From: Labilibaculum filiforme
Lineage (GTDB): Bacteria; Bacteroidota; Bacteroidia; Bacteroidales; Marinifilaceae
Length of the DNA stretch: 64,000 bases
Direction: 5' to 3'
NCBI RefSeq assembly: GCF_002843315.1
Contig: NZ_MVDD01000019.1
Span: 1 to 64,000 of the forward strand
In this document: one piece after another, positions 1 to 8,033 of the stretch
Position numbering within the stretch: position 1 is the first letter of the stretch
Layout of the letters: every line of letters starts with the position of its first letter
Made by a program: the position numbers and the translations under genes
Notes under the pieces: generated by a model
Database searches by the model: none
The model's input: only the letters and a program-made list of their open reading frames with translations
What the model was told of the DNA's origin: nothing

Positions 1-57
1 TTGATAGATATCATAACAGAGATCATCAAGGCATCGATAGGAAGAAGCCGTTTATAA
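1..57 (+). CDS. possible C-terminal end of an upstream gene (partial)
   Basis: Frame 1 is open from the first base to a TAA at 55-57, giving 18 residues rich in Ile, Lys and Arg. It could be the tail of a gene that begins left of the window, but 18 codons are too few to name it or to exclude chance. Confidence 0.2.
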   Translation: MIDIITEIIKASIGRSRL

Positions 58-471
58 TCTATAATATGGCAGCTTAAATTCAACTTAGAAAACAGAAATC
101 TTGGTCCAACAAAACGAGGGTACTATATACAGTACAAACATACTGCATTGTTTAGTTAAGTGCTTTTAATAGAAGTTAAAGAATGCTAAAAGGTACAGTT
201 TTTAAATCATGAAAGATTTATAAACAGAAAAAGCTTGGATCCCCACCCAAGCTTTTCTACTAACCACTATTTACTAACCTAATCTCTATGAAAAAACGGT
301 AACCAGCCGTCTACAGTACAAACATACTGCATTGTTTGGTTAAGTGCTTTTAACAGAAGTTAAAGAATGCTAAAAGGCACAGTTTTTAAATCTTGGAAGA
401 TTTATAAACAGAAAAAGCTTGGATCCCCACCCAAGCTTTTCTACTAACCACTATTTACTAACCTAATCTCT

Positions 472-537
472 ATGAAAAAACGGTTACCAGCCGTTTACTT
501 TACAAACATACTGCATTGTTTAGTTAAGTGCTTTTAA
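472..537 (+). CDS. 21-residue mini-ORF in repeat unit 2
   Basis: ATG follows a G-free leader and a terminator-like hairpin. The peptide begins MKKRLPAVYF and ends in FTNILHCLVKCF-type residues before TAA. The first copy of the array (ATG at 288) is broken by TAA after four codons, whereas this one is open. It may be a leader peptide, or the decapitated N-terminus of an outer-membrane receptor. Translation is not demonstrated. Confidence 0.3.
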   Translation: MKKRLPAVYFTNILHCLVKCF

Positions 538-655
538 TAGAAGTTAAAGAATGCTAAAAGGCACAGTTTTTAAATCATGAAAGATTTATAAACAGAAAAA
601 GCTTGGATCCCCACCCAAGCTTTTCTACTAACCACTATTTACTAACCTAATCTCT

Positions 656-721
656 ATGAAAAAACGGTTACCAGCCGTTTACTTTACAAACATACTGCAA
701 TGTTTAGTTAAGTGCTTGTAA
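656..721 (+). CDS. 21-residue mini-ORF in repeat unit 3
   Basis: This has the same length and start context as the copy at 472-537. It differs by CAT to CAA (His to Gln) and TTT to TTG (Phe to Leu) near the end, and it stops at the same codon position. Confidence 0.3.
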   Translation: MKKRLPAVYFTNILQCLVKCL

Positions 722-845
722 TAGAAGTTAAAGAATGCTAAAAGGCACAGTTTTTAAATCATGGAAGATTTATATACAGAAAAAAGCTTGGATCCCCACC
801 CAAGCTTTTCTACTAACCACTATTTACTAATCTAATCTATTATCT

Positions 846-911
846 ATGAAAAATTTTTTATTCTTTGTTTGCTTTACGAATATACCGCATTGTTTGGTTA
901 AGTACTTTTAA
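846..911 (+). CDS. 21-residue mini-ORF in diverged repeat unit 4/5
   Basis: The first half differs completely (MKNFLFFVC). The second half, FTNIPHCLVKYF, matches the other copies with synonymous third-base changes (ACA/ACG, AAC/AAT, TTA/TTG). The frame stays exactly 21 codons long. This pattern suggests that the segment was under protein-coding selection before or after duplication. After the stop the frame would continue QMLNDYKLK, so a TAA replacing a sense codon may have truncated a longer gene. Confidence 0.35.
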   Translation: MKNFLFFVCFTNIPHCLVKYF

Positions 912-1275
912 CAGATGTTAAACGATTATAAATTGAAATGAATAAGTTTTTTTGTGGAAAAAAACCTAGGCTCTCACCCAGGTTTTTAATCTAATCAATA
1001 ACCCTAATCTTAATCTATGAAAAACTTTCTTAACTGTCATGTTTTATAAATATACGAAAATCTTTGATAAACGTACATAAATAGATGTTAAAAATCCTTA
1101 ATGTGATGTAATTTTTTTTTAACACAATTAGGAATTAGAATTTTTGATTGATTTATATTCAAATTAATTCATCTTTTAAGCAGAATTTGTCCATCATAAA
1201 TAATAAGTTTTCCATAGCTCGGGGAATTTATCTAAATTAGGCCTTTAGCAAAAATCAAACTTCTATTATAACCCA

Positions 1276-4200
1276 ATGAATGAGTCGGTATTAAATGCTT
1301 TAATGCAACTATTTGCGATTGTTGTTGATGAACAACAACATGGTTTTGAGGTGGCCGCCAGAGAGGTTGTCTCAAAATATTTAGAGAAGCGCTTTAGTAA
1401 GGAATGGCATGAAAGGTATTTATCCAATTTCGATCGCTATCTAAAAGAGTCCTATTACGATAAAGGTCAAAAGGATACAATTCAAGATAAACACAAGCAG
1501 GTTGCTCAGGTTTGTGCAAAATTAGTCGAGGAAGTAGAACAGGAACAGAAAGTCTGGATCATGTTGCAGCTTCTTGAATTTATTGATGATTCGGAGTTTA
1601 CAGGGCCCGAGGAGTTGAGTTTTGTGAAAACTGTTTCGAAGGCATTCAAAATTCCTAAAGATGAATTTGAACACAGTCTTCAGTTTATTTTAGGAACCGA
1701 ATATTCAATTCCTTATAATCCGTATTTATTAATTGTTGATGCTAATGAAACCTTTGAGCATGAGGTGGTAAAGCATATTTGCAGTCCCCGACTGCGAGGA
1801 CGGCTATTTATTCTCCACTTAGAGAGTACCAATACTTTTTTGTTGAAATACTTTGGAGAGTATAACCTTTTTCTAAATGGGCATAACGTTAAACTAGATC
1901 GTACTTATCTGTTGTCTTATGGATCAGTGATTAGAAGTCATAGAATTGATCCGATTTATTATTCTCAGGTTGTATCGGTATTTATTGAGAGAAAAAATCA
2001 TTCCGATATTCGTTTTGTTGCTAAAAACATCGAATTTAAGTTTCCAGGTTCTAATAATGGTGTTTTCCCGGTTAATTTTCATGTTGAATCGGGCCAACTG
2101 ATTGGAATAATGGGAGGAAGTGGAACGGGGAAATCTACTCTTTTAAATGTATTAAATGGGAATTTGCCACTAAATCAGGGGGATATCTATATCAATGGTT
2201 ATAACCTTCATAAAGATAGGGAAGAGCTTGAAGGGGTTATTGGTTACGTTCCTCAGGATGATTTGCTGGTGGAAGAACTAACGGTTTACCAGAATTTGTT
2301 TTTTAATGCTAAGCTTTGTTTCGACAATTTAGACGAGGAAACAATCGAAAATATTATTGATGATACCATCGAAAGTTTTGACTTGGTGGAAGCCAGAGAT
2401 TTAAAGGTTGGGGATCCGATTAATAAGGTATTAAGTGGTGGACAAAGAAAGCGTTTAAATATTGCATTAGAATTGATGCGAGAACCTTCGGTTTTGTTTG
2501 TTGATGAGCCTACTTCGGGTTTGTCGAGCATGGATTCGGAAAAGGTGATGTTGCTACTGAAAAGACAGGTTTTAAAAGGAAAATTGGTGATGTGTAATAT
2601 TCATCAACCATCATCAGATATTTTTAAATTGTTGGATAAGTTAATCATTATGGATCAAGGAGGTAAAGTGATCTATTTTGGAAATCCGATTGATGCAGTT
2701 GTTTATTTTAAAACGCAAAGTCAGTATGTTAAGGCGGATGAAAGTGAATGTTTGACTTGTGGTAATGTGAATTCGGAGCAAATCTTAAGAATTGTGGAAA
2801 CCCGAATGATGAACGAGTATGGCAAGCAAATTAGAAAAAGAAAAAGAAGTTCCGACGAGTGGTACGAACTTTATAAAGAGAATATTGAGGCAAAGCATCC
2901 GGTAAAGGTTCCGAAGCGGAAAAGGTTAATTCCAATAAATTATTTTAGTATTCCTAAACGAACCGAGCAATTAAAGATTTATTTGGAACGTGATGTAAAA
3001 GCGAAAATCAGTAATAAGCAATATATTTTAATTACTCTTTTGGAGGCTCCTATTCTAGCGGTTATCTTGGGGTACTTTACGAAATATATTAGTGGTTCGG
3101 CCGACGATTCTACGGCTTATATATTTTCGAATAATGAAAATATTCCTTCCTTTATTTTTATGGCAGTGGTAGTTTCTCTTTTTCTAGGATTAATTATATC
3201 TGCAGAGGAAATTCTTCACGATCGAAGAATCATGAAAAGGGAATCTTTTTTGAATTTAAGTCGCTTTAGCTATCTGAATTCTAAAGTGATAATTATGCTT
3301 GTAATTTCGGCTATTCAAACCTTACTATTTGTTTTGGTTGCGAATACCATTCTGGAAATTAAGGGATTAACTTTTGAATATTGGTTAGTGCTATATACTG
3401 CATCGGCATGTGCTAATATGATTGGCTTAAACTTGTCGGCGGCCTTGAATACGGTGGTGGCTGTTTATGTATCCATCCCGTTTATTTTAGTGCCTCAACT
3501 CTTGTTTTCCGGAGTAATTGTGAATTTTACCAAATTACATCCAGCCATTACTTCACAAAAATATGTGCCCATTGTTGGCGATTTAATGACTTCGCGATGG
3601 GCTTACGAGGCTTTGATTGTTGAACAGTTTAGAAACAATGATTTTGAGGATCAGTTTTTTGATTACGAACAAAAAATGAGTGAGGCTTCGTTTCGATCCT
3701 CCTTTTATATACCGGAAATAAAACAGCGTTACCAAAATTGGTTGCAAACAAAGAATTTAAAGCAATTTCAGGTATTAAGGAATGAATTTGGAAAATTGGC
3801 TGATTTATATGAACTACCAAGTGGAGTAGAGCTAAGTGAAAACGGATTAGTGAGTTCTTCGGATGACTTAATGGATTGGTTGAAGAAAATTAAGCAAAAC
3901 GGATGGACTGACTATAAAACAGAGTCGGATAAAAGAGATCAGGCTTACCTAAACTTATTGGAACAATACGGAGGTAAAAAAGAATTATTTGAATTTAAAC
4001 AAAAACATTATAATGAAGCTATTGAGCAAATTGTTTTAAATCGAAGAGAGCTAAATAAAATTGTTGAATTTGAAAGTGAACTAATTCAATTAAAGGATCC
4101 GATTTTTCAAATTCCTTCGAATAAAGTGGGAAGGGCACAATTATTTTCTTCTCAGAAAAGACTTGGCGATTATTTGATTGATACTTTCTGGTTTAATGTG

Positions 4201-4344
4201 ATTATTGTTTGGTGCACCAGCATGTTTTTTTACTTTACACTTTATTTTGATGTAGTAAGAAGATTCTTGCTTCTGGTTGAAATATTATGGGTTAAAATAC
4301 TTCCCGAAGGTCATATTCGGATTACAAGAAAACGTCTGAAGTAA
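1276..4344 (+). CDS. ABCG-like transporter with TerB-like and FHA-like N-terminal regions
   Basis: This 1022-residue protein probably sits in the inner membrane and couples ATP hydrolysis to transport of an unknown substrate. Residues 1 to about 140 are helical and TerB-like. Residues about 165-245 are beta-rich and resemble an FHA fold (LNGHNVKL, LLSYGSVI). The ABC ATPase follows, with Walker A GGSGTGKST near residue 282, signature LSGGQRKRL near 386 and Walker B VLFVDEPTSGL near 405. From about 585 there are five hydrophobic segments of the ABC2/ABCG type, a long charged extracytoplasmic region (about 780-960) and a last membrane segment near 975. The ATPase-before-membrane order is that of ABCG half-transporters, so a dimer is expected. 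It stands alone and is followed by a terminator. Substrate cannot be inferred. Confidence 0.8.
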   Translation: MNESVLNALMQLFAIVVDEQQHGFEVAAREVVSKYLEKRFSKEWHERYLSNFDRYLKESYYDKGQKDTIQDKHKQVAQVCAKLVEEVEQEQKVWIMLQLLEFIDDSEFTGPEELSFVKTVSKAFKIPKDEFEHSLQFILGTEYSIPYNPYLLIVDANETFEHEVVKHICSPRLRGRLFILHLESTNTFLLKYFGEYNLFLNGHNVKLDRTYLLSYGSVIRSHRIDPIYYSQVVSVFIERKNHSDIRFVAKNIEFKFPGSNNGVFPVNFHVESGQLIGIMGGSGTGKSTLLNVLNGNLPLNQGDIYINGYNLHKDREELEGVIGYVPQDDLLVEELTVYQNLFFNAKLCFDNLDEETIENIIDDTIESFDLVEARDLKVGDPINKVLSGGQRKRLNIALELMREPSVLFVDEPTSGLSSMDSEKVMLLLKRQVLKGKLVMCNIHQPSSDIFKLLDKLIIMDQGGKVIYFGNPIDAVVYFKTQSQYVKADESECLTCGNVNSEQILRIVETRMMNEYGKQIRKRKRSSDEWYELYKENIEAKHPVKVPKRKRLIPINYFSIPKRTEQLKIYLERDVKAKISNKQYILITLLEAPILAVILGYFTKYISGSADDSTAYIFSNNENIPSFIFMAVVVSLFLGLIISAEEILHDRRIMKRESFLNLSRFSYLNSKVIIMLVISAIQTLLFVLVANTILEIKGLTFEYWLVLYTASACANMIGLNLSAALNTVVAVYVSIPFILVPQLLFSGVIVNFTKLHPAITSQKYVPIVGDLMTSRWAYEALIVEQFRNNDFEDQFFDYEQKMSEASFRSSFYIPEIKQRYQNWLQTKNLKQFQVLRNEFGKLADLYELPSGVELSENGLVSSSDDLMDWLKKIKQNGWTDYKTESDKRDQAYLNLLEQYGGKKELFEFKQKHYNEAIEQIVLNRRELNKIVEFESELIQLKDPIFQIPSNKVGRAQLFSSQKRLGDYLIDTFWFNVIIVWCTSMFFYFTLYFDVVRRFLLLVEILWVKILPEGHIRITRKRLK

Positions 4345-4386: not shown

Positions 4387-4516
4387 ATGAATTGTTTTTA
4401 CTAATCGATTACTAAGACTCATTCTTAATATCGCCACAGTGTAATAAAAAGCGATTTCCATGTGTTATTTTAGTCGTATTTGGTCAGTGTTGTATCCTAT
4501 TTTTGTAAATAGAATT

Positions 4517-5410
4517 ATGGGTAGAATTACACAAATACAAAGTATGTCCCTTCACGATGGACCCGGAATAAGGACAACAGTCTTTACCAAAGGGTGCAAT
4601 ATGCGTTGTGCTTGGTGTCACAACCCTGAAACGTGGAGTTCAAAATTACAAATTCAATTTCTTAAAAATAAGTGCATTGATTGCAAAGCTTGTTACCCGT
4701 CTGCTACTACATCCGATTTTACGCCAAGTTTATTAGTGAGGCCAAATCAATATTCTATTTCGGAATCGATTACAATTGCAGAATCTTGCTATACAGGTGC
4801 TTTAGAAGTTGTTGGAAAAGACGTGTATGTTGATGAGTTACTAAAAACAATTGAAAAAGATCGCGAATTTTTCGATGAATCGGGTGGAGGAATTACAATT
4901 TCAGGCGGAGAGCCATTACTGCAAGCTGAATTCGTAATCGAAGTATTCAAAAAGTGCAAACAAAAAGGAATTCATACCGCTATTGAAAGCAACCTACATT
5001 CAAATTCCGAAATTGTTAAAAAAGTAGCTGAATATACCGATTTGTTTATGGTTGATATTAAATTGTGGGATTCGGAAAAGCATAAAAAATGGACTGGCTT
5101 AGGAAATGAATTGGTGCTTGAAAATATCAAGCTTTTAAATGTGCTTGGAAAGAAATTGATGATACGCACTCCTGTTGTTCCTGGCGTTAATGATAATGTG
5201 GAGGAGTTGAGCTCGATTGCAAAGTTTGTGAATGAATTAGATTGTTTGGAGACCTACGAATTGTTACCATACCATAGTCTTGGAAATGGCAAATACATAG
5301 CCTTAGGAATGGAGAATGAAATAACGAAGTTCGATCAAATCAGTAAAAGTCATTTTGATTATTTACAGGATGAAATGGCCTTGCTGTGCAAAAAATTTAA
5401 AAAGAATTAA
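4517..5410 (+). CDS. glycyl radical enzyme activating enzyme (radical SAM, PflA family)
   Basis: This enzyme uses S-adenosylmethionine and a [4Fe-4S] cluster to install the glycyl radical on the enzyme encoded 12 bp downstream. The radical SAM motif is C27-N-M-R-C31-A-W-C34. SMSLHDGPGIRTTVFTKGC is a family signature, and the glycine-rich GGGITISGGEPLL follows. Between them lies a ferredoxin-like insert that is reduced here: CIDCKAC is present but only one further Cys (SCYTGAL) is seen, so the second auxiliary cluster may be incomplete. The frame is open 19 codons further upstream (4460), but the family start is the Met at 4517 (MGRITQIQSMSLHDGPG). It is the first gene of the GRE operon. The gene neighbour, not the sequence, tells which GRE it serves. 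Confidence 0.9.
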   Translation: MGRITQIQSMSLHDGPGIRTTVFTKGCNMRCAWCHNPETWSSKLQIQFLKNKCIDCKACYPSATTSDFTPSLLVRPNQYSISESITIAESCYTGALEVVGKDVYVDELLKTIEKDREFFDESGGGITISGGEPLLQAEFVIEVFKKCKQKGIHTAIESNLHSNSEIVKKVAEYTDLFMVDIKLWDSEKHKKWTGLGNELVLENIKLLNVLGKKLMIRTPVVPGVNDNVEELSSIAKFVNELDCLETYELLPYHSLGNGKYIALGMENEITKFDQISKSHFDYLQDEMALLCKKFKKN

Positions 5411-5422
5411 GAAAGATATATC

Positions 5423-7579
5423 ATGAAGACAAAGTACGACGATAGAATTGCTGTGTTGAGAAAAAAGAAACAGAATCAGACTGAGGATAAGATTCAAATT
5501 GAAGGTTTGTTGGATGAGGATGATTATGGAAGAATTGCTCCTCCGAAAGAAGGTGCTTGGGAGATTATTCCCAATCATGAAGATGGATCTTTTTATGGTG
5601 TACAAGGTTGGACTGATAATTTTTGTGATTTAATGGAGAAACATCCTACTTATGTTGATCCTAACGATGCTTTTGCCGGAAGATGGATGTACTTCATGTC
5701 TAAAATGAGACCTAATCTATTCAAACCAGAATTTTCATACGATCATCTAAAACCTGAAATTGAAAAATACAACATTATTGATGGTATTGGCTTTGATGCT
5801 CATTTTGCTCCTGATTACGAATTAGGGTTGAAATTAGGCTGGGGTGGTATCTTGGAAAAAATTAGAAAATACAGAGATGTAAATGCCAAAGATGAAGAAA
5901 CTAAATTGTTCTACGATTCGCACGAAAGAGCGGTTTTGAGTATTCAAATTTGGATTAAAAATACAATTAAAGAAATTAAGCGTAAGATTGATAGTGAGAT
6001 TGATGCTGAATTAAAAACTAATTTAGTAGAAATGCTTACGGTAAATGAGAACATTTTGAATGATGCTCCTCAATCTTTTCGAGAAGCTTGTCAGTGGATT
6101 ATTTGGTATCACCTGGCATCAAGAACGTATAATCGTGATGGTGCTGGCGGACAGTTGGATACACTTTTATATCCATTCTATTTAAAAGATAAAGAAGCCG
6201 GAATTATAGATGATGAAGCCGTGGTTTATCAATTGGCTTGTTTCTTAATTAATGATCCAATTTATTGGCAAATGGGTGGTCCGGATGGTAAAGGGGGAGA
6301 TATGACCAATCATTTATCTTATTTGATTCTTGAGGCAGGTGATAAGGTGAATACCTCTTTAAATTTAACCATTCGTGTTCACGATCAATTGGATCAAAAA
6401 TTCTTGAAAAAATCAGTAGAATTACTCATAAAAAATAAGAATGCGTGGCCACGTTATTCGGGAGACAAAGCGCTTGTTGAGGGGTTTATGAGAAATGGTT
6501 ACAATGAAGAATTAGCAAGGAAAAGAATAGCAGTAGGTTGTAATTGGATGTCGCTTCCTGGTTTGGAGTACACCATGAACGATTTGGTGAAAATTAACAC
6601 GGGAAGGGTGTTTCAAGTCGCATATAATGAGGTGATTGATGGCGGTTTTAAAGAGGCATCCACCGATAAATTGTATGCTATTTTCCAAAAACATTTGGTA
6701 ATTGGTGTAAAAGCAACTGCAGATTGTATTCGCTTTCAATTAGAGCAACAGCGATATAATGAGCCTGAATTACTATTAAACTTGTTGAGTTACGGTCCTT
6801 TAGAGAAAGGCTTGGATGCAAGTGCAGGAGGTGCAGCATATTATAATCTGGCAATTGATGGGGCAGGATTGGCAACAATAGCAGATTCATTTGCGGCACT
6901 TCAGCAGAGAATCGAGGAGGAAGGTAAAATTACTTGGGAAGAACTGGATTATCATTTAAAAGGCAATTGGGAAGGAACCGATGGGGAGAGGATTCGTCAA
7001 TTAATGAATCGCAGTGATCGTTACGGACAAGTAGATTCACGTGGTGATATTTGGGCAAAAAAGATTTCGGAAGAATTTTCTCAATTAGTAAAAAATGAGT
7101 CGGATGAGGAAAAAGGTCATTGCTTTATTCCTGGCTGGTTTTCATGGGCAAATACGGTTGGTTTGGGAAAGGCTTTAGAAGCTACACCTAACGGACGATT
7201 TGCTAAGGCGCCAATTTCTCACGGTGCTAATCCACATCCAGGATTTTCAAAAGATGGTGCGGCCACTTCAATGGCTAAATCAATTGCGCAAATTCAGCCA
7301 GGATACGGAAATACAGCTCCAATGCAATTAGAATTGGATTTATCCATGGCAAAAGGCGATCAGGTTGATAATTTTATCGCTTTGATAAAGACTCACTTCA
7401 AGTTGGGAGGAACTTTAATCAATGTAAATATTGTTGACCAGAAGAAAATATTGGAGGCACACAGAGATCCATCCAAATATCCTGATTTGGTAGTGCGTAT
7501 TACGGGATTTACCGCCTATTTTGCGATGCTAACTCCTGAGTTTCGGCAACTGGTTGTGGATCGAATTTTAGAAAACTAA
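5423..7579 (+). CDS. glycyl radical enzyme (PFL-like family) of unknown substrate
   Basis: This is a 718-residue anaerobic radical enzyme. The glycyl-radical loop is near the C-terminus (VVRITGFTAYFAML, radical Gly695). The thiyl Cys is in VGCNWMSLPG (Cys373). Known GRE eliminases and decarboxylases have Gly-Cys-x-Glu here, and pyruvate formate-lyase has Cys-Cys. This protein has Asn-Trp after the Cys, so neither pattern fits and a PFL annotation would be unsafe. It is shorter than most diol dehydratase or choline lyase homologues (about 790-850). It lies directly after its activase. It is followed after one base by a cupin gene, then a sugar porter and a GH47 mannosidase, which suggests a sugar-derived substrate. 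That link is inference from context. Confidence 0.85.
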   Translation: MKTKYDDRIAVLRKKKQNQTEDKIQIEGLLDEDDYGRIAPPKEGAWEIIPNHEDGSFYGVQGWTDNFCDLMEKHPTYVDPNDAFAGRWMYFMSKMRPNLFKPEFSYDHLKPEIEKYNIIDGIGFDAHFAPDYELGLKLGWGGILEKIRKYRDVNAKDEETKLFYDSHERAVLSIQIWIKNTIKEIKRKIDSEIDAELKTNLVEMLTVNENILNDAPQSFREACQWIIWYHLASRTYNRDGAGGQLDTLLYPFYLKDKEAGIIDDEAVVYQLACFLINDPIYWQMGGPDGKGGDMTNHLSYLILEAGDKVNTSLNLTIRVHDQLDQKFLKKSVELLIKNKNAWPRYSGDKALVEGFMRNGYNEELARKRIAVGCNWMSLPGLEYTMNDLVKINTGRVFQVAYNEVIDGGFKEASTDKLYAIFQKHLVIGVKATADCIRFQLEQQRYNEPELLLNLLSYGPLEKGLDASAGGAAYYNLAIDGAGLATIADSFAALQQRIEEEGKITWEELDYHLKGNWEGTDGERIRQLMNRSDRYGQVDSRGDIWAKKISEEFSQLVKNESDEEKGHCFIPGWFSWANTVGLGKALEATPNGRFAKAPISHGANPHPGFSKDGAATSMAKSIAQIQPGYGNTAPMQLELDLSMAKGDQVDNFIALIKTHFKLGGTLINVNIVDQKKILEAHRDPSKYPDLVVRITGFTAYFAMLTPEFRQLVVDRILEN

Positions 7580-7580
7580 G

Positions 7581-8033
7581 ATGGGAGATTTAAAATTAAT
7601 GCAGGAATATGCGCATAAAGGGGAAGGATTTTCTCCTTTGTATATTAGTGGAGAGTGGCAGGTGGCGCAAATAAATTATGCTCCTAATCAAGCTATTGGA
7701 AGCATTACAAGTATCGATATTCATTTTAAAACAGATGAATTATTTGTATTGTTGAAAGGGACTGCAATTTTAATAGCTGCAATAAGAAATGATGGTAAAG
7801 TTCTTTCTTTTGAAACCACTCTGATGAAACAAGGTGTTGTTTATAATATACCTAAAATGGTGTGGCACAATATCGCACTTGAGCCAACTGCCGAGGTGCT
7901 AATTTTCGAAGATAAAAACAGTCATTTGGGAGAATATGAAATTGTGGATCTTTCGCTTGAGGAACAAAAAAGCTTAACACAACAACTTAAAAAAACTATA
8001 TTCGATAATACCCAAATCGGAGCAACTAAATAA
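7581..8033 (+). CDS. cupin-fold protein linked to the glycyl radical enzyme
   Basis: This 150-residue protein starts one base after the GRE stop, so it is probably translationally coupled. A single cupin barrel is visible: IHFKTDELFVLLKG matches cupin motif 1 with one of its usual histidines replaced, and IPKMVWHNI matches motif 2. There is no signal peptide, so it should be cytoplasmic. Cupins of this size can be sugar isomerases or epimerases, or only ligand-binding proteins. The depleted metal ligands leave catalysis uncertain. Its fixed place between a GRE and a sugar transporter suggests it handles the substrate or product of the GRE, which is inference. Confidence 0.6.
   Translation: MGDLKLMQEYAHKGEGFSPLYISGEWQVAQINYAPNQAIGSITSIDIHFKTDELFVLLKGTAILIAAIRNDGKVLSFETTLMKQGVVYNIPKMVWHNIALEPTAEVLIFEDKNSHLGEYEIVDLSLEEQKSLTQQLKKTIFDNTQIGATK

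Follow-up and report, generated by a model that had tools for sequence, protein, structure and literature searches.

The tandem array at the start of contig C19 of the Labilibaculum filiforme genome is very probably a row of minus-strand small RNA (sRNA) genes that are related to the FopS family of the Bacteroidales and would repress SusC translation. Each unit is predicted to have its own promoter and its own intrinsic terminator and to yield an RNA of about 85 to 95 nt. The window, that is, the whole stretch of 64,000 nucleotides that was analyzed, is the start of this 78.9-kb contig in a genome of 5.2 Mb. A tandem repeat with a period of 184 bp occupies 128-838 (3.9 copies, 96% match) and is followed by diverged units, just as the first-pass annotation of this DNA had described. 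R1, a covariance model built from sRNA copies of this genome, matches five copies in the window, which span 224-1025 on the minus strand. The features are listed here, with the coordinates of the promoter elements read from the sequence.

1-127, no strand: probable insertion sequence end that interrupts the array, with inverted ends shared with the right end of contig C26, as judged by eye
135-142, minus: orphan -7 box TATGTTTG, sRNA body cut off; the likely body is C26:45919-45997
224-312, minus: sRNA copy 1; R1 match 224-296, 92.7 bits; terminator 228-257
319-326, minus: -7 box of copy 1; TTAAC at 339-343 and 359-363
408-496, minus: sRNA copy 2; R1 match 408-480, 92.7 bits; terminator 412-441; fold z -4.1
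503-510, minus: -7 box of copy 2; TTAAC at 523-527 and 543-547
592-680, minus: sRNA copy 3; R1 match 592-664, 92.7 bits; terminator 596-625; fold z -4.1; transcription start at about 680, placed from the position of the -7 box
687-694, minus: -7 box of copy 3, TATGTTTG (TAnnTTTG); TTAAC at 707-711 and 727-731
777-870, minus: sRNA copy 4; R1 match 777-854, 93.7 bits; fold z -2.4
877-884, minus: -7 box of copy 4, TATATTCG, one mismatch; TTAAC at 897-901 and 917-921
955-1040, minus: sRNA copy 5, diverged, with a different terminator stem; R1 match 955-1025, 61.3 bits; RF04319 26.4 bits (gathering score 56); fold barely beats shuffles, z -1.35
1047-1054, minus: -7 box of copy 5, TATATTTA, one mismatch; TTAAC at 1087-1091 only
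1276-4344, plus: ABC-2 type transporter gene, array flank in synteny and outside the sRNA system (synteny, Pfam)

Terminator-like sites (a hairpin followed by a T-run) were found three times in positions 1-1275, all on the minus strand, with 0.4 expected; the plus strand of the same stretch has none. One intact unit folded at two lengths gave z scores of -4.2 and -5.0, and the strong hairpin that had been claimed for every unit holds for the intact units (z of -2.4 to -5.0) but not for the fifth (about -1.4). In the 12-pair stem, pairing is kept by two-sided changes at 4 of the 12 pairs when 12 copies of the genome are aligned. The 5' part of the sRNA is made up of a U-tract/CAU seed and then a purine-and-U-rich stretch, and what had been described as a G-free leader is the antisense of this seed. 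At E ≤ 0.1, R1 has 15 matches in the genome, of which five lie in the window, another five on C26, and two on C24; C13, C8, and C3 have a single match each. On reading, 14 were judged convincing; the match at C3:63054 (L026) did not enter the set of copies, as no CAU is present at its 5' end. A copy on C24 (L023:1480-1580) has two successive seeds, CATAGAG...TTAGG and then TTTTTCATAG...TTTAGG, with one terminator. Another tandem array of this sRNA, at L005:1767-1996 (C26:39954-40183), includes a stretch of Ns, either an assembly gap or masking, and its copy count is uncertain.

The array appears to continue beyond the contig break. The right end of C26 (L007:1600-1728) carries a transposase-like start beside an sRNA body without a promoter, and the start of the window (1-142) carries the apparent other end of the same element, followed by an sRNA promoter without a body. 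A Pfam search with the 22-residue transposase-like stub gave no match. By its sequence, an insertion sequence has probably split one sRNA gene from its promoter. A GNAT gene precedes the C26 copies, and in 4 of the 13 loci searched in relatives (L057, L058, L073, and L063) such a gene borders the array on its far side. From the matching element ends, the split promoter and body, and the position of the GNAT gene in relatives, the most likely order, inferred across two contigs that are not joined, is C26:45725, C26:45919, the insertion sequence, and the five window copies.

The promoters were compared in 62 copies, 14 from this genome and 48 from relatives; the latter are 54 R1 matches minus four low-scoring plus-strand ones (antisense, at the same hairpins) and two at contig edges (L059:1 and L060:1). 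Of the 62, 50 have the strict box TAnnTTTG and 10 have it with a single mismatch. A TTAAC element precedes the box by exactly 37 nt in 54 copies and by 17 nt in 42, and 41 have both. As a comparison, we used 21 of the 22 R1 matches at FopS loci of the Bacteroidales (L129:1765 was left out). All 21 FopS promoters have TAnnTTTG just before the U-tract, at 7 nt in 20 of them and at 9 nt in one, which identifies the box as the -7 element and rules out the TATGTTTG element as a -33 box. In the copies studied here, the distance from box to U-tract is 21 to 24 nt in 53 of 60, which implies a longer 5' end of the sRNA. A conserved 5' hairpin in this extra leader is unsupported (mean z of -0.57; z ≤ -1 in 15 of 40 nonredundant segments). 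A canonical sigma-ABfr promoter, as used by FopS, combines TAnnTTTG with TTTG at -33. An identical scan at -33 found TTTG in 0 of 50 copies here versus 5 of 21 FopS promoters, and TTG in 0 of 50 versus 12 of 21. The FopS promoters (upstream regions of L126-L145) also often show GTTAA 53 to 55 nt before the -7 box, with 10 occurrences over the 21 promoters; GTTAA is TTAAC in reverse orientation, and the same regulator possibly serves both.

On the plus strand, every unit had been credited with a 21-codon frame whose second half was kept by synonymous third-base changes, which was taken to suggest selection on the peptide or decay from a longer gene. Such frames, alike in their second halves, are present at 472, 656, and 846, and of the 51 copies that could be tested, 20 have an ORF of exactly 21 codons (4 to 42 in the others), as might be expected of a 21-residue leader peptide or small protein amplified along with its leader. 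However, the frame of the first unit (ATG at 288-290) ends after 4 codons and that of the fifth after 10. The conserved box element was found in 44 of the 62 copies; it shares the register of the ORF in 29 of these and falls in one of the other two frames in 15. Among 17 nonredundant in-register copies, conservation at codon positions 1, 2, and 3 is 0.83, 0.76, and 0.82 outside the two promoter elements and 1.00 inside them; there is no third-position excess, and the conserved frame with synonymous bias of a peptide-coding leader was not found. Conservation that is confined to promoter elements and has no codon-position bias fits a promoter and not a peptide, and T-run terminators exclusively on the minus strand also speak against a plus-strand product, so that we consider a peptide highly improbable. 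FTNI...VK is the antisense of the -7 box and the -17 TTAAC, and the 21-codon ORF is, as judged from the aligned copies, an antisense shadow of the promoter. As this case illustrates, a promoter on the opposite strand can look like a conserved small ORF.

At E ≤ 0.001, R1 finds the sRNA in 24 of 56 genomes of the family Marinifilaceae, in 7 of 17 genera, often as arrays. The ABC-2 transporter encoded beside the array is 92 to 93% identical to copies in named Labilibaculum species. Of 21 ABC-gene loci found, 19 were searched, and 14 of them, in Labilibaculum and Marinifilum, have sRNA copies upstream; R1 found no sRNA at this locus in four Ancylomarina and one Splendidivirga. The first ~260 residues of this ABC transporter fusion lack any Pfam match. 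Farther along the window, 4460-8033 encodes a glycyl-radical enzyme (PFL-like, below the cut-off of all 12 NCBIfam models that it matched) together with its activase and a small protein that is weakly cupin-like. At the 11 uncut loci, there are 2 to 7 sRNA copies with a spacing of mostly 174 to 217 bp; unit number, which had been proposed as a check across strains, varies between species at the same locus.

Central copies within an array are 0.93 to 0.97 identical at four of five loci and 0.89 identical at the fifth, and the window copies share 0.63 to 0.83 identity with the copies of the other four loci; between the close species represented by L057 and L058, copies are 0.95 alike. High identity within arrays and low identity between loci suggest homogenization inside the arrays over longer times. 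The within-array identity would also fit recent unequal crossing-over in an inert or decaying mobile or interspersed repeat without function, and the array is indeed broken by a probable insertion sequence. Yet the promoter boxes, their spacing, and the seed are kept across genera despite diverged sequence between them, the stem covaries, and the units keep their place beside the ABC gene, all of which makes an inert repeat very improbable.

A search of the whole window with Rfam at gathering score found nothing. At a low threshold, minus-strand matches to two Bacteroides sRNA families, FopS (RF04319; 20.1 to 28.2 bits versus a gathering score of 56, E of 0.2 to 3.3) and BTnc231 (RF04180; 19.9 to 27.2 bits versus 80.4, E of 0.011 to 0.26), were obtained at each of the five hairpins, and in the FopS and BTnc231 alignments the 5' ends of related copies agree nearly letter for letter. 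Low-threshold matches to MicC, rimP, PsrR1, and others were dismissed as chance. RF04319 has no match in the L. filiforme genome at E ≤ 0.001. In the other direction, R1 picks out the FopS gene, weakly, at all 20 FopS loci that were fetched, which were the best-scoring ones, with E values of 0.0013 to 0.17 in 59 kb; it gives 22 matches in all, with about one expected by chance at E ≤ 1. This result indicates that the array sRNA and FopS are probably homologous, although under a strict threshold the members of each group escape the model of the other. In a sample of 295 genomes of the order, FopS was found in 66 and R1 in 3 (L. filiforme included) at E ≤ 0.001.

FopS as described in PMC11697453 is multicopy and has a 5' UUUUUCAU...AGAUUUAGG seed and a 3' intrinsic terminator. 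The array sRNA likewise has the R1' seed beside UUUUUCAU, a Rho-independent 3' terminator, and multiple copies, and it shares the TAnnTTTG box and predicted targets in SusC start regions; its scores stay below the RF04319 gathering score. It differs in being arranged in tandem (up to 7 copies), in a box-to-U-tract distance of 21 to 24 nt instead of the 7 or 9 nt of FopS, in having TTAAC at -37/-17 and no TTTG at -33, in a longer seed that adds AGUGGUUAGU, and in a genome without a detected RRM_1 protein. With BTnc231 it shares an almost identical alignment of the first 24 nt and then a terminator hairpin, but the 154-nt BTnc231 model has an internal part that is missing here, and the matches are subthreshold. 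GibS (RF04182) has a seed, called R1 in PMC11697453, in common with FopS; however, it has a PM2 promoter and a second seed, R2, and it scores only 22.3 (plus strand) and 20.9 bits here. Some FopS genes are also closely spaced elsewhere in the Bacteroidales (G187:C1:3141137-3141708 and L129), so that local amplification is not confined to this family. The word "tandem" is missing from the main text of PMC11697453 and from the searched passages of PMC7366714. Our literature searches found no report pairing an sRNA with Labilibaculum or Marinifilaceae and no title on tandem Bacteroides small RNAs and SusC paralogs.

The genome has 26 SusC genes over the family cut-off. Duplexes between the seed and the start regions (-60 to +30, longest-ATG rule in both sets) average -20.6 kcal/mol for these 26 and -13.4 kcal/mol for 304 control genes drawn from the window and from 20 further stretches (P = 1e-11), with several SusC start codons uncertain. 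All six sRNA variants tested are significant (P from 2e-5 to 1e-11), and 0 of 40 shuffled seeds matched the SusC difference for any variant (60 control genes were used in the shuffles). The main predicted pairing sites are AUGAAAAA, which pairs with the U-tract, and the leader at about -30 to -10, which pairs with GGUUAGU and AGUGGUUAGU. When the U-tract is removed and only leaders are considered, the difference remains against all control genes (P = 9e-7), against 103 signal-peptide-like genes (P = 3e-7), and against 30 with MKK, MKN, or MKR starts (P = 5e-4). This strong complementarity of the sRNA 5' region to SusC start regions suggests FopS-like repression of SusC translation as the likely function. 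The units had been suggested to be amplified 5' ends of SusC/TonB-receptor genes that could serve as recombination cassettes, attenuator arrays, or decoys. They are not such 5' ends, but a connection with SusC leaders survives, through complementarity, in mirrored form: the other strand is predicted to encode RNAs complementary to SusC 5' ends, and trans-acting sRNA genes take the place of those three roles.

The same complementarity could instead reflect a common type of leader, with the array acting as a sponge or on non-SusC targets. Some control genes, many with signal-peptide-like starts, do score high. Among other genomes, with leaders considered without the U-tract, G040, a second sRNA-bearing genus with 24 SusC genes, gave z of -3.5; of two R1-negative relatives with 30 SusC genes tested in each, G009 has no signal (z of +1.0), and G016, where no sRNA was detected, keeps a weaker one (z of -2.0). 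With the U-tract included, G009 gave -1.7 to -3.4 and G016 gave -3.3. Where the sRNA occurs, sRNA and leader are strongly linked; that this link is absent elsewhere is only partly shown. The missing SusC preference of shuffled seeds, the G009 leaders, and the action of FopS on SusC mRNAs in Bacteroides thetaiotaomicron reported in PMC11697453 all count against a sponge or other targets, a reading that we regard as unlikely.

The RNA-binding partner described for FopS in B. thetaiotaomicron is RbpB, an RRM_1 protein (PMC11697453). No RRM_1 protein was found in the L. filiforme genome at E ≤ 0.001, with the Bacteroides control positive. Among the 56 family genomes, R1 occurs in 24, RRM_1 in 28, both in none, and neither in 4; the 24 sRNA-bearing genomes thus lack a detected RRM_1 protein as well, and the RbpB circuit of B. 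thetaiotaomicron cannot be assumed here. Across the order, FopS and RRM_1 are unassociated (RRM_1 in 40 of 66 FopS genomes versus 156 of 229 others, P = 0.30); the pattern in the family may therefore stem from one clade event.

We propose that SusC repression by the array would work as follows. Each unit would be transcribed from its own TAnnTTTG promoter, which in most units has two TTAAC elements upstream, spaced 20 bp from each other, and an activator at these elements may switch the copies on together. The U-tract/CAU and the following seed would bind across the AUGAAAAA start and along the leader of SusC-like mRNAs and keep ribosomes from entering, and the tandem copies would raise the sRNA dosage. 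The enterobacterial sRNAs OmrA and OmrB target outer-membrane protein mRNAs. OmrA/OmrB (named in PMC11697453) and LhrC1-5 of Listeria, described in PMC6794450 as acting on surface-protein mRNAs, are likewise multicopy and are compared here only in how they work, as their sequences, phyla, and partners are unrelated. The blocking step is modeled on FopS-10 of B. thetaiotaomicron, which was shown experimentally to pair next to the start codon of a SusC mRNA and so to block its translation (PMC11697453).

Related sRNAs are known from gut Bacteroides; what seems new is tandem arrays in a marine group, seemingly without the known partner protein. For the Marinifilaceae as a whole, we tentatively envisage a FopS-like, RbpB-independent global brake on SusC-type glycan importers with a dosage tuned by unequal crossing-over, one regulator that fires all copies at once through TTAAC, and mutual exclusion of the sRNA and RRM proteins in the family, a combined picture that we hold at somewhat less than even odds. 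The finding would extend the range of FopS-type control over polysaccharide uptake to relatives where the FopS model of Rfam finds nothing, and it suggests that such control can exist without the described RNA-binding partner. With 2 to 7 units at one locus, these species would offer a natural copy-number series bearing on why bacteria keep many copies of an sRNA.
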